Below are positions 412-4,562 of a DNA stretch of 64,000 bases, in pieces. The notes under the pieces were generated by a model. It saw only the letters and a program-made list of their open reading frames with translations, did no database searches and was not told the DNA's origin. The DNA is from Acinetobacter pragensis. GTDB taxonomy: Bacteria > Pseudomonadota > Gammaproteobacteria > Pseudomonadales > Moraxellaceae. Positions within the stretch are counted from its first letter, which is position 1, and every line of letters begins with the position of its first letter. Where the stretch lies: the NCBI RefSeq assembly GCF_001605895.1, contig NZ_LUAW01000034.1, forward strand, positions 54-64,053, given 5' to 3'. The position numbers and the translations under genes are program-made.

Positions 412-831
412 TTAGTCCAAAGACTCCAGCTGTTTTAAAATTTGGCAGTCATCTACGGTGCTTTGAGATGTGCAGGATTGACGCAGCTGCTGCAATTGAA
501 CTTGAAATTTTTGCAGCTCCGCAATTCGGTTTTCAACATGCCCTAAATGTTCATCAATTAAGTCATTGACGGCACAGCAGTCCTGTTCAGGGTTTTGCTC
601 GAGTTCAATCAGCCGCTGAATTTCTTTTAAGGTCATATCCAAGGCGCGGCAGCGCTGAATAAAAACTAATCTGCGCAGTGCATCGTCGTTGTAGTAGCGG
701 TAATTATTTGCGCCCCGCAGGCTGGGCTGAACGAGCTGTTTCTTTTCATAAAAGCGGATGGTATCAGCACTTAACCCCGTTTTATGCACTAAATCTTTTA
801 TTAAATATTCTGCAGGATTATTTGGGTTCAT
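412..831 (-). CDS. MerR-family heavy-metal regulator (CadR/PbrR/ZntR-like)
   Basis: Metal-sensing transcription activator of 139 residues, the usual size for CadR/ZntR proteins. The N-terminal winged helix-turn-helix (about residues 9-45) holds the family signature GLSADTIRFYEKKQL. A long dimerisation helix follows, then a C-terminal cysteine-rich part (Cys85, Cys86, Cys120, Cys129, with His95 and His98) suited to a thiolate metal such as Zn, Cd or Pb. The ATG at 831 is chosen because the longer frame to 918 would run through the shared promoter. It is divergent from a cation-diffusion transporter, the classic sensor/effector pairing. Which metal is sensed cannot be told from sequence; the regulator class is secure. 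Confidence 0.88.
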   Translation of the reverse strand: MNPNNPAEYLIKDLVHKTGLSADTIRFYEKKQLVQPSLRGANNYRYYNDDALRRLVFIQRCRALDMTLKEIQRLIELEQNPEQDCCAVNDLIDEHLGHVENRIAELQKFQVQLQQLRQSCTSQSTVDDCQILKQLESLD

Positions 832-836
832 AGAGC

Positions 837-868
837 TTGACCTTAGAGTTGGTCCATAGTTTTGAATA
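837..868 (+). promoter_or_regulatory. MerR-type divergent promoter for the cation transporter
   Basis: TTGACC at 837-842 serves as the -35 box. It is followed by an overlong 19-20 bp spacer and a weak -10 near 862-868 (TTGAATA). MerR activators act on such overlong spacers. The spacer holds an imperfect dyad (GACC at 839-842, GGTC at 851-854). The transcript would begin near 875, which rules out the upstream TTG at 862 as the transporter start. Confidence 0.6.
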
Positions 869-897
869 AGCATAATACATATCAGAGCGACTTGAAA

Positions 898-1542
898 ATG
901 GCTTGTACTTGCAGTCACGAACCCGCACCTCCAAAACCGGACAGTAAATTCAGAACGGCCCTTTGGATTGCACTAGTCATTAATTTGGCGATGTTTGGTG
1001 TGGAATTGATTGGTGGGGCTTATGCACATTCATCGGCGCTTTGGGCCGATGCCTTGGACTTCTTCGGCGATGCTGTGAATTATGGCGTGTCACTGGCTGT
1101 ATTGGGCGCGAGTCTATATTGGCGCGCATCCGTTGCATTGCTGAAAGGGCTTGTAATGGCTGGATTCGGCTTCATTGTGATCGCCAAGGTAATTTATGCC
1201 TACACGCAAGGCATACCGCCTGAAGCGATAACGATGGGGGCAATTGGTGTCTTGGCATTGGCAGCCAACATGTTTTGCGCGTTTATTCTTTATGCCTTCC
1301 GTGACGGTGATTCAAATATGAAATCTGTCTGGCTGTGCAGCCGAAATGATGCCATCGGCAATGTGGCGGTTATATTGGCAGCGGTCGGTGTTTTTGGTAC
1401 CGGAAGCATGCTGCCGGATATTATTGTGGCTGTCATTATGGCCGTTTTAGGCCTGACGGGCGGTTATCAAGTAATGAAAAAAGCCCAGCAGGAGCGTAAA
1501 GAAAGTTCGGACGAAAAACAGGCCTTTCAGTCCACAGAGTAA
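898..1542 (+). CDS. Small cation diffusion facilitator (CDF) transporter
   Basis: Inner-membrane metal exporter of 214 residues, probably removing Zn/Cd/Co-type ions under control of the divergent MerR protein. Six hydrophobic helices are visible between about residues 20 and 193. Helix 2 carries the DxxxD pair (Asp54, Asp58), matching the YiiP transport site. At the helix-5 position, where most CDF proteins have HxxxD, this protein has CxxxD (Cys147, Asp151). It has a Cys- and His-containing N-terminus (ACTCSHE) and lacks the cytoplasmic C-terminal domain of about 80 residues found in YiiP/ZitB. The ATG at 898 is preferred over the TTG at 862, which lies in the promoter. Family assignment is good; metal preference is unknown. 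Confidence 0.85.
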   Translation: MACTCSHEPAPPKPDSKFRTALWIALVINLAMFGVELIGGAYAHSSALWADALDFFGDAVNYGVSLAVLGASLYWRASVALLKGLVMAGFGFIVIAKVIYAYTQGIPPEAITMGAIGVLALAANMFCAFILYAFRDGDSNMKSVWLCSRNDAIGNVAVILAAVGVFGTGSMLPDIIVAVIMAVLGLTGGYQVMKKAQQERKESSDEKQAFQSTE

Positions 1543-1731: not shown

Positions 1732-2586
1732 TTAAGCCAGCTGCTGGTTCATTTTGCTCCAAAAATTGTCCCAAAGTGCTAAATAGTCAGTTTGCAATTG
1801 CTGAAAGTGCAGCGCATTTTCAGATAAATAGCACTGTGTGAGCAATGCCCAAATGTCATCTTCATGGTTGTCATCATTGGCAAGGGTATTGCTTCCATCT
1901 GCTTCGGCAATGCCGTGGCAGGCATAGTAGCCTTGTGTGTAAATTTGCCCGTAGATTGAGATATTGCACCTCAGCGCTTCACTGAATTTAATCACCTGCA
2001 GTTCTGTGCACGCTAAAATCAGCAATAAATCTGCATACGAGTGCAGATGCTGCTGAATGAATTGCGCTAATGCAACCGCTTCATCTGCAGCTGCTTGCCG
2101 ATCTGCTGCATTCAGCTCAAGCTGCTGCATCAGTTTTAAAAAATAGACTAAATGTGATTTGGATGGGGAGCTTTGATCAAGCTGGCGAGTATTGAATCCC
2201 AATTCATCGATCAGATTCAGCGACAATAAATAGCGTGAATATATTTTTGATGCGATACGCTTTTCAGGATCAATATTATGGCAATTTTCTAAACTGCAGG
2301 CTTGATAAATCGCCATGCTCAGCGCATCGGTAAAATTTTTGACGATTGCCGTGAAGTAATTAATATGAATGAATTTCAACTGCTCAAGACTAAGCTGGCA
2401 CTGATTCAGCTTGTCTAGAATAGGATGTTTAAACAATATATGGCTTGCCGTTGAATGCTTTAATGCATTTACCGTTGCAGAATTGCTGTCCCATAATGCC
2501 GCTGCAGTAGAATTTTGAATAAAATGCAGAAGTTCTACACGGGTCAGTTCAGATTGAGTAAAAGAGAATGTATTCATATACTGCAT
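1732..2586 (-). CDS. Heme-oxygenase-like (HDO-type) iron-containing redox enzyme family protein
   Basis: Predicted all-helical cytoplasmic protein of 284 residues resembling the TenA/PqqC/HDO superfamily ('iron-containing redox enzyme'). The pattern is an FKHPILDKL segment, an IDELG motif (Glu129) followed by His145, a helix with Glu195 (ACTELQ), and a C-terminal YACH (His224). In typical HDO enzymes the last helix reads HxxxDxxH. Here it reads His224-xxx-Glu228, and the next histidine (His241) comes only after an Asp/Asn-rich insertion. A di-iron site is therefore possible but not assured. It stands alone, converging on the transporter gene. The start could be 2586 or the ATG at 2577. The substrate is unknown. 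Confidence 0.6.
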   Translation of the reverse strand: MQYMNTFSFTQSELTRVELLHFIQNSTAAALWDSNSATVNALKHSTASHILFKHPILDKLNQCQLSLEQLKFIHINYFTAIVKNFTDALSMAIYQACSLENCHNIDPEKRIASKIYSRYLLSLNLIDELGFNTRQLDQSSPSKSHLVYFLKLMQQLELNAADRQAAADEAVALAQFIQQHLHSYADLLLILACTELQVIKFSEALRCNISIYGQIYTQGYYACHGIAEADGSNTLANDDNHEDDIWALLTQCYLSENALHFQQLQTDYLALWDNFWSKMNQQLA

Positions 2587-2829
2587 TAAATTTTAATTTT
2601 TCATCTTTTTTTATCATAGTGAAAAAAACAGCAATCTTCCAGTTTTTTATTTTAAATAATTTATTATATTTCAGTATGTTGTAGATGTGCGTGCAGTATT
2701 TTTAATAAAAAGCCTAAGAAGTTCTGAATTTAAGATATAATTCACGCATAGAGGGGATGTAAATCTTATACATACAGTTGTTATGAGCCACTGGCTTAAT
2801 TTTAAAGTTTGGTGCATCAGGTAAAATAA

Positions 2830-3396
2830 ATGTCAAAAAAACAAGACATCATTAATACAGCGCTTAATCTCTTTAATTCGTATAGCTATAATTCAGTTGG
2901 TATCGATCGGATTATCAGTGAATCTGGCGTTGCGAAAATGACGTTTTATAAATATTTCCCGTCTAAAGCTAAATTGATAGAAGAATGTCTGGTGACCCGA
3001 AATCAAAATCTGCAGCAGTCTTTAGATGCGGCAATTGCTCAGTGCGACCCGAAAGATTACCTCTGCCATATCAGAACCATATTTGTATGGTACGACGCAT
3101 GGTTCCGCACGGCGGATTTTAACGGCTGCATGTTTCAAAAAGCCGTAGAAGAAATCTCAAAAATTTATCCGTCATCTTTACAGCCGGCAATTGACTATAA
3201 AGAATGGCTTAAAGCTCAGCTGAGCCATGCATTGCAGCATTTGGGCATTCCGCAGCCCGACCAGCTGGCTGCATTTTTATCCAGTATTTTAGATGGCATG
3301 ACCATTCAGGCGCAAATTGACCCGAATCAAGTTCATTTGGAGGACTACTGGAAAAGGGTGGATACACTGATTCAAATGGAATTAGCCAGTGCTTGA
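2830..3396 (+). CDS. TetR/AcrR-family transcriptional regulator
   Basis: Repressor of 188 residues. The N-terminal helix-turn-helix (about 8-50) ends in the family hallmark KMTFYKYFPSKAKL. The C-terminal ligand domain holds FNGCMFQKAVEEIS and a DGMTIQAQID stretch typical of small-molecule TetR proteins. It has its own promoter with TATAAT near 2736 and an AGGT ribosome site just before the ATG. No matching dyad occurs in its own upstream region. The best operator candidate is instead the ACAGAC/GTCTGT dyad at 3648-3661, 250 bp downstream of the gene. The ligand is unknown. Confidence 0.85.
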   Translation: MSKKQDIINTALNLFNSYSYNSVGIDRIISESGVAKMTFYKYFPSKAKLIEECLVTRNQNLQQSLDAAIAQCDPKDYLCHIRTIFVWYDAWFRTADFNGCMFQKAVEEISKIYPSSLQPAIDYKEWLKAQLSHALQHLGIPQPDQLAAFLSSILDGMTIQAQIDPNQVHLEDYWKRVDTLIQMELASA

Positions 3397-3472
3397 TCGT
3401 GGTTAAAACATTCAAATGAAGCACTTTTTAACTGAAATTGATATTTAGCGCTCAGATAAAAGCTTAAAAAAT

Positions 3473-3505
3473 AAAAAAGCGCGTTAACCGAAAGTTAAGC
3501 GCGCT
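3473..3505 (-). terminator. Rho-independent terminator (minus strand)
   Basis: Hairpin built from GCGCG-TTAAC and GTTAAGCGCGC with one bulge. On the minus strand it is followed by a T-rich tail (the A-run at 3473-3478 on the plus strand). It ends any transcript coming from the promoter at 3670-3697 or from the DUF2071 gene. Confidence 0.65.
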
Positions 3506-3576
3506 CTGCTGATAATGAGTTATAACCTGCAGCATTCATTTTGCTGTAAAAAATGAAAGCTGCGGCAGTGAGATAC

Positions 3577-3624
3577 TTAATGCATCTTCTTGTATTTATT
3601 TTGACCCTCTGAATGTTGGTTCAT
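3577..3624 (-). CDS. Possible 15-residue peptide in a TetR-operator transcript
   Basis: A short open frame, MNQHSEGQNKYKKMH, begins 39 nt downstream of the predicted start of the minus-strand transcript from the 3670-3697 promoter. It has no strong Shine-Dalgarno site (only TGAAAAAACGA upstream). It is the only ATG-led frame of note in that transcript. It may instead be a chance frame within a non-coding RNA. Confidence 0.2.
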   Translation of the reverse strand: MNQHSEGQNKYKKMH

Positions 3625-3647
3625 TCGTTTTTTCAGCAGTAAAATAG

Positions 3648-3697
3648 ACAGACTTGTCTGTTTGGTCAGATTATATAGAATTTGATGTAAAAAACAA
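3648..3697 (-). promoter_or_regulatory. Minus-strand promoter with TetR-type operator at +1
   Basis: Read on the minus strand, TTGTTT (3697-3692), a 16-bp spacer and a perfect TATAAT (3675-3670) form a strong promoter. The dyad ACAGAC-TT-GTCTGT (3648-3661) sits immediately downstream, at about +2 to +15, where a bound TetR protein would block transcription. The regulated unit appears to be only the ~190 nt up to the terminator at 3473-3505. Binding by the adjacent TetR protein is inference. Confidence 0.5.
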
Positions 3698-3770: not shown

Positions 3771-4562
3771 TTATTTTTCCAAAATGGCCGGCGGTAAATA
3801 GATTGTGAACGCATTGATTGGCTCAATCAGGACACTGTACGGCTTTAGCTGATCTTCAAATGAAACCAGATTCATGCGGGCCAGCAATTCAAAACGCGCA
3901 TGATGCAGCTGAGCGGGTTTGGGCTGCAGCCGATCATGCCAAACGCGGTAAGTGCCTAACTGTCCATCACGGCGATGATAAAATCCAGCCAAGGGATGGG
4001 TTAAAAAGACCTGATAGCTTTCTAAATCCGGAAAGCCTTGGTATTGCCAAGCGTCTTCTTCAGATTGAGTTAAATGCAGTTCTGCGCCTGCCCATTCAGA
4101 GCGGGTCTGCATTTTGTATTGCTGATAAAGCCCCGAAGCATTTTGCTGGCAGTCAAATTCGAAATTTGCCGCATGCCAAGGCAATTGCCATAAATAGCGC
4201 GGCACTATCAATGTCCAAGAATCCAAAGTCGTGCCAATAAACCAGACACAGCGTTCCTGTGTTTTTTGATCAATGACGTAAACACGGTAATTGGTTTGTC
4301 CCATGGTAAATTTGGGAAATGGATAAACAGCAGACGTAAAATCGACATCAATAAACGGCACGACAGACATCAGCGCTTTTTCTGCGCCTTGATATTGAAT
4401 GGTATCCAGTTGAAAGCGTGCTGGAATGATGTCTTGGAAACGGGCTGGTTCTATCGCATAGGTAATTAATGCGAAATGCTGCAGTTTGCATTGCACATCA
4501 ATGCCTTTGGGCTGAGGGCGCGGATGCAGGAAATCTTGAAATTTTAATTGCGGGAATGTCAT
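3771..4562 (-). CDS. DUF2071 (YqjF-like) protein
   Basis: Cytoplasmic protein of 263 residues resembling the YqjF/DUF2071 family, which has an acetoacetate-decarboxylase-like fold. Recognisable parts are the ITYAIEPARFQDIIPARF segment (bacterial DUF2071 proteins typically describe 'P..f..dt.dG.a'), VVPFIDVDF, FPKFTMGQTNYRVYV, and the C-terminal half with HPLAGFYHRRDGQLGTYRVWH. No catalytic assignment is made. It is monocistronic, with no signal peptide or membrane segment. The start is the ATG at 4562. Confidence 0.7.
   Translation of the reverse strand: MTFPQLKFQDFLHPRPQPKGIDVQCKLQHFALITYAIEPARFQDIIPARFQLDTIQYQGAEKALMSVVPFIDVDFTSAVYPFPKFTMGQTNYRVYVIDQKTQERCVWFIGTTLDSWTLIVPRYLWQLPWHAANFEFDCQQNASGLYQQYKMQTRSEWAGAELHLTQSEEDAWQYQGFPDLESYQVFLTHPLAGFYHRRDGQLGTYRVWHDRLQPKPAQLHHARFELLARMNLVSFEDQLKPYSVLIEPINAFTIYLPPAILEK

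Follow-up and report, generated by a model that had tools for sequence, protein, structure and literature searches.

A convergent tetR gene and a predicted structured small RNA with a putative operator over its start in Acinetobacter

Introduction

In the local regulator/small RNA pairs GcvA-GcvB, OxyR-OxyS and SgrR-SgrS, the gene of the regulator adjoins the RNA that the regulator controls. A TetR-family repressor that acts on a small RNA gene is known from Vibrio, where LuxT acts on qrr1.

In Acinetobacter baumannii, the TetR-family regulators of the ABUW_1645 type form a group of 11 proteins, the helix-turn-helix of which is highly conserved with that of ABUW_1645. Their overexpression results in translucent colonies, and three of them that were tested showed no autoregulation (PMC9802203, accessible part of the text). 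These regulators belong to the same genus and the same broad family as the one considered here. The accessible part of that paper mentions no small RNA gene adjacent to them, and the small RNA SrvS that it names is plasmid-borne (PMC9802203).

Here, we analyze a 64,000-nucleotide stretch of Acinetobacter pragensis DNA (the window), in which a tetR gene faces a putative small RNA gene on the opposite strand. The source genome, G000, consists of 72 contigs with 3,706,388 bases in total, and 175 congeneric genomes were used for comparison.

Results

Promoter, dyad and terminator of the small RNA gene

The minus strand of the window contains a TATAAT box at 3670-3675, which puts the transcription start (+1) of a predicted RNA near 3663. 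A perfect dyad, ACAGAC-TT-GTCTGT, is located at 3648-3661 and would thus extend from about +2 to +15. A hairpin at 3478-3505, accompanied by a run of U residues at about 3464-3478 (T residues on the minus strand), has the appearance of an intrinsic terminator, as a base-pairing small RNA should have. The RNA delimited by these elements (3472-3663, minus strand) would be about 190 nt long. The original prediction had described the same architecture, namely a perfect TATAAT, a dyad at about +2 to +15 and a terminator about 190 nt downstream, and all three were found where it had placed them.

A candidate -35 element, TTGTTT at 3692-3697 (minus strand), was read from the sequence 16 nt from the -10 box, but it is weak. 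A generic consensus scan for promoters and terminators returned neither the promoter nor the terminator of the small RNA, probably because TTGTTT contains only three of the six consensus bases and the terminator stem is bulged.

The dyad is the sole match in the window at one mismatch or fewer (0.01 expected from shuffled sequences), and the exact pattern occurs once in the whole 3.7-Mb genome. With one mismatch allowed, five further sites appear in the genome, three of them inside ORFs, compared to four for a reversed control pattern. The set of dyad, promoter and terminator was judged to be above chance on the strength of its conservation in relatives, which is described below.

The tetR gene

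The tetR gene (2830-3396, plus strand) and a DUF2071 gene (3771-4562, minus strand) are convergent and separated by 374 bp. The 188-residue product of tetR carries an N-terminal TetR_N helix-turn-helix domain (PF00440, E 2.9e-12, 46.6 bits against a cut-off of 24). Its closest named relative is the tetR of A. bouvetii with 92% identity. Homologues with E<=1e-40 were found in 79 of the 175 congeners, and a protein search of the genome of origin gave a single match at this threshold.

A probable -10 box of tetR is located at 2736-2741 (plus strand) and has no dyad nearby. As the original prediction had stated, tetR has no similar dyad of its own: none is present in the window within 300 bp upstream of the gene at two mismatches or fewer. 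The upstream regions of tetR in the 12 loci of group A (defined below) and in locus L074 were also inspected by reading. An autoregulatory role of such a dyad at tetR was ruled out for the window by its absence from these 300 bp. As no such dyad is present in these 300 bp and the sole exact site in the genome is at the RNA promoter, the locus does not resemble an autoregulated or efflux-type TetR unit, in which the operator precedes tetR or an adjacent transporter gene. The missing dyad fits the lack of autoregulation of the three A. baumannii regulators mentioned above (PMC9802203, accessible part of the text).

Two cysteines, at positions 53 and 100, do not vary among 11 aligned TetR proteins, and it is conceivable from these residues that the protein is a sensor of redox state or of electrophiles. 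The closest solved TetR structures (8z6d, 9llq and 8z6e) provided no clue as to the ligand, and a literature search with two of these codes gave no publication.

Two neighborhood features are described here for completeness. A gene for a 284-residue protein (1732-2586, minus strand) is divergent from tetR, and its relatives adjoin tetR in several clades; the protein has no match in Pfam, NCBIfam or the PDB. Elsewhere in the window, genes for a MerR-type regulator (412-918, minus strand) and a cation efflux protein (862-1542, plus strand) are divergent, and as their listed ORFs overlap at 862-918, at least one of the two starts is probably located further in.

Conservation of the dyad, the promoter and the terminator

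When the intergenic region was used as a DNA query, matches were found in 26 of the 175 congeners. Besides the window's own match, 11 were substantial (E 1.2e-6 or better) and 14 consisted of short pieces only. All 11 substantial matches adjoin a tetR gene of 80-92% identity. We then compared the best locus from each of the 79 tetR genomes and the first 11 further matches, which are paralogues with about 50% identity.

In 74 of the 79 loci, the sequence behind tetR contains a dyad of the form ACAGA-N4-TCTGT or ACAGA-N4-TATGT with a terminator after it. In two more, L062 and L087, both elements are present on reading, and the terminator pattern had missed them. With L109, which is described below, counted in, a dyad occupies this place in 77 of the 79 loci. 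In one of the two loci without it, L091, the sequence is truncated by the end of the contig. The other, L074 from genome G020, has kept tetR and the RNA and has lost the dyad, which counts against control of the RNA by TetR through this site. Among 74 loci, the best -10 hexamer in front of the dyad, picked from a 13-step window, is identical to TATAAT in 61 and differs from it by one base in the other 13. The original prediction had called for a comparison of the dyad, the TATAAT and the terminator across Acinetobacter genomes; all three are conserved in relatives that keep tetR, and the general lack of the dyad that it had named as contrary evidence was not observed.

The paralogues are different in this respect, since eight of the 11 have no dyad within three mismatches in the 700 nt downstream, and the remaining three have a match with three mismatches. 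In nine loci that were read, the gene beyond the RNA varies by clade and tetR is constant. The variable gene encodes a DUF2071 protein, an ArsR-like regulator or a ferredoxin-reductase-like protein, the latter two being named from reading of the proteins and not from family searches.

Two loci deserve separate description. In the natural operator loss (L074/L248, G020), a dyad-like sequence, AAATACAGGTCTGT, with two mismatches is located about 125 bp upstream of tetR instead. In L109 (G099), tetR is broken by stop codons and frameshifts, and a shorter RNA with a shifted dyad persists.

Specificity of the dyad

The exact dyad pattern has 62 sites in 60 of the 175 genomes, and the reversed control pattern has 14 sites. 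RNA promoters that adjoin tetR account for 43 of the 62, and 41 of these 43 genomes contain no other exact site. The other 19 sites are distributed between ORFs (14) and intergenic regions (5). One of these five, in genome G003, starts 52 bp before the start codon of a distant tetR homologue (41.5% identity) and lies between this gene and a divergent gene that resembles the gene for the 284-residue protein of the window. An independent association of this kind speaks for the dyad being the operator of this group of TetR proteins. Overall, the comparative evidence supports the earlier claim that the site belongs with the convergent tetR and not with an efflux gene.

Intergenic exact dyads also occur away from tetR, at position 1448 of L293 (G098) and position 1473 of L292 (G085), and one of the two is extended to a long palindrome; these are possible sites of related TetR regulators. 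In L249 (G090), an intergenic dyad-like sequence, ACATACAGGTCTGTATA, is located near position 1501 and was reached via a weak match to the covariance model R1 described below.

RNA fold and covariation

The whole small RNA is predicted to fold with an energy of -54.5 kcal/mol (z -5.6), and none of 200 shuffled sequences folds as well. For the covariation analysis, the loci were divided into groups A (12 loci, one of them the window), B (12), C (29, among them L062 and L087), D (4), E (3, from A. baylyi and A. soli) and F (16, from the calcoaceticus-baumannii complex), with L074, L091 and L109 kept apart.

In group A, which comprises 12 species, two-sided changes that keep the pairing were found in 19 of the 37 predicted pairs. 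The mean for shuffles was 9.4, and none of 500 reached the observed count; slid versions of the structure, used as a control, gave 3-7 such pairs. On the minus strand of the window, the hairpin GAATG/CATTC at 3611-3626 (helix 2) has 95% of its alignment cells paired and a two-sided change in one of five pairs. The signal is stronger in hairpin 3 (3571-3587), where five of six pairs show two-sided changes, and in hairpin 4 (3526-3565), where all ten do. The terminator (helix 5) has 97% of the cells paired and two-sided changes in three of 11 pairs. The operator hairpin is a poor test of RNA structure as its helix hardly varies, which is to be expected of a DNA site.

The region at 3586-3610 (minus strand) consists of an unpaired conserved AGAGGGU and an A-rich tail. 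AGAGGGU is invariant in all 12 group A loci and was also seen in groups B and C, but not in groups E and F. Together with the tail, it is a candidate site for base pairing or for Hfq.

The joint alignment of groups E and F (16 sequences, 15 of them distinct, from 16 of the 19 loci) has two-sided changes in five of 24 pairs. This count was reached by 20 of 500 shuffles and the number of pair types by 259 of 500, whereas none of the 500 reached the number of two-sided cells or the covariation score. Groups B and C add little, as two-sided changes are present in only two of 39 and three of 31 pairs, respectively (22 of the 29 group C loci were aligned).

A closing helix, CUGCUGA/UCAGCAG, is predicted to connect the 5' region (3633-3639, minus strand) with an element that precedes the terminator (3506-3512). 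A comparison of 73 sequences with their shuffles, L034 being left out, placed this helix beyond the shuffles in groups A (1%) and B (3%) only. It was not clearly beyond them in groups C (24%), D (46%), E (6%) and F (10%).

Covariance models and distribution

Covariance models were built from tetR-adjacent loci of group A (R1), group C (R2) and groups E and F (R3) and were searched against the 175 genomes at E<=0.01. The number of matches that are convergent with this tetR and no further than 450 nt from it was 26 of 36 for R1, 33 of 33 for R2 and 49 of 49 for R3. R2 and R3 had no match in the 96 genomes that lack a tetR match. The matches beyond the training genomes (14 for R1, 11 for R2 and 33 for R3) are in many cases weak (E 0.001-0.01) but are found at the same place. 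Of the ten R1 matches elsewhere, all with E-values of 2.5e-4 or weaker, one corresponds to the G104 locus read on the opposite strand, and two fall in genomes without a tetR match (G173 and G042); the one in G173, which is one of three that were read, resembles the end of another gene.

Between them, the three models account for 77 of the 79 genomes with tetR, and in the remaining two (G088 and G109) a dyad and a terminator are visible. A search of the A. baumannii-like genome G006 for another copy of the RNA gave weak fragments only (E 0.09 or worse), and the search for a plasmid copy gave no match. No Rfam family scored above its gathering score in the window or in five relatives; the four sub-threshold matches (E 0.012-0.066) were far below the gathering scores.

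Among 149 genomes from the family, the tetR relatives outside the genus had E-values of only 2.0e-47 to 4.3e-54, compared to 1.6e-102 or better for orthologues in the same sample. Judging from these weaker E-values, the tetR/RNA pair seems to be confined to Acinetobacter, where tetR indicates its presence in 79 of 175 species. At the level of sequence, the locus has the composition of a local regulator/small RNA pair, with an adjacent regulator and an RNA that has its own promoter and terminator.

Discussion

The most likely explanation of these findings, to which we assign a probability of roughly 0.8, is that a dedicated convergent TetR protein represses a structured non-coding RNA via one operator over the start of the RNA. 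The promoter box, the dyad, the terminator, the conserved and covarying RNA structure and the co-occurrence with tetR are all directly visible in the genomes. A dyad that covers +2 to +15 has the classical placement of a repressor site, and it is from the placement and conservation of the dyad that we infer the control by TetR.

The proposed mechanism is as follows. The repressor made from the convergent tetR gene would bind to its single dedicated operator at +2 to +15 of the RNA gene. Upon release of TetR by a ligand or by stress, the RNA of about 190 nt would be made, and its intrinsic terminator would end it before the 3' end of tetR is reached. The RNA would then use conserved unpaired stretches, AGAGGGU being one of them, to act by base pairing. 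Transcription of the RNA, binding by TetR, repression as opposed to activation and action by base pairing are thus all predictions from sequence.

An extension of this explanation is a mutual switch, in which the RNA is not only repressed by TetR but itself reduces the expression of tetR, either through antisense pairing or through collision of polymerases. The two genes are convergent in the 79 loci, and the distance between the end of the RNA terminator and the tetR stop codon is 10 nt or less in 25 of 74. Furthermore, 11 of 16 scanned loci have no tetR terminator in the next 500 nt and two have one only inside the RNA gene, so the transcripts may overlap in many species. These are all matters of geometry, however, and the RNA stops before tetR, so that an overlap requires read-through from tetR. 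A terminator-like hairpin is found directly behind tetR in L057 and beyond the RNA in L043 and L047, and pairing between the RNA and the tetR start region in 12 loci is within about 1.1 standard deviations of mononucleotide shuffles. We therefore consider a mutual switch unlikely. Equally doubtful is its bolder form, a bistable toggle in which TetR silences the RNA, the RNA silences tetR, and which could account for the stochastic on/off behavior of the TetR proteins that govern the switching of colony type and virulence in Acinetobacter.

Another explanation is that the dyad is bound by a TetR regulator other than the neighbor. Related TetR proteins have much of the helix-turn-helix in common, and the regulons of the A. 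baumannii group overlap (PMC9802203, accessible part of the text). Nevertheless, the genome of origin has one tetR match at E<=1e-40, the linkage is constant in the 79 loci, and the distant homologue in G003 has the dyad in front of its own gene, all of which makes another binder quite improbable.

The RNA could also be mainly a 3' end product of a DUF2071 transcript, as the DUF2071 gene is located upstream on the same strand and the consensus scan noticed no terminator between the two. This is very improbable given that the RNA has its own conserved TATAAT and dyad and that most of nine other loci have a different gene beyond the RNA, often pointing away from it. The original prediction had left a choice between a small RNA and a 15-residue peptide: an operator over a short minus-strand transcript is supported by the comparison, but a peptide under TetR control was rejected as scarcely credible since the 15-codon frame in the window is not conserved, the longest frames in relatives vary in place, sequence and length (with only five codons in four group B loci), and the RNA hairpins covary.

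Control of a structured RNA by the convergent TetR would add to the known repertoire a small RNA family without an Rfam match, together with its likely dedicated regulator. Distant members of this family escape a plain DNA search and are exposed by their constant neighbor, tetR. For research on small RNAs in Acinetobacter, it offers a defined pair that lends itself to experiments in A. baylyi, a species that is harmless and readily transformed. If the TetR protein turns out to be one of the colony-switching regulators of A. baumannii, a link that we regard as a lead, these regulators would have a natural operator, and the RNA would be a direct output open to measurement.

Published transcripts provide a second lead. 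Using rnpB and SRP RNA in G006, which we assumed to be A. baumannii, we estimated that the locus in strain AB5075 should be on the reverse strand at about 2.08-2.23 Mb. A small RNA of AB5075, ABUWs040 (art37), with a length of 153 nt at 2.261 Mb, fits the A. baumannii-like homologue in size and strand, but its position is just outside the estimate; ABUWs039, with 90 nt at 2.131 Mb, is inside it (PMC5320573, accessible part). ABUWs040 is therefore the best-sized published candidate in a comparison by size, strand and position alone. The RNA may also be listed under a number in RIL-seq or Hi-GRIL-seq papers. In the open-access literature, the accessible main-text parts of which include PMC9802203, PMC10878099, PMC12802169, PMC11472050, PMC3976366, PMC12646401 and PMC5320573, we found no description of a tetR-linked small RNA in Acinetobacter.

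Pairs of a regulator and an RNA are already known, and it is the convergent, TetR-linked pair that is new as far as we have found. Like GcvA-GcvB, OxyR-OxyS and SgrR-SgrS, the locus has a regulator gene beside a small RNA that is predicted to be transcribed independently. However, the classical pairs are divergent, an order that is usual but does not strictly define them, and their regulators belong to other families, whereas here the regulator is of the TetR type and all 82 R2 and R3 matches in the 175 genomes adjoin this tetR in convergent order. Unlike in those pairs, the probable operator is located over the start site of the RNA, and the RNA is unrelated to theirs as far as Rfam shows. 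The locus resembles LuxT and qrr1 in that a TetR-family repressor would act on a small RNA gene, but LuxT and qrr1 are from another genus, involve another RNA and do not form a dedicated adjacent pair, as tetR and the small RNA of Acinetobacter appear to do.
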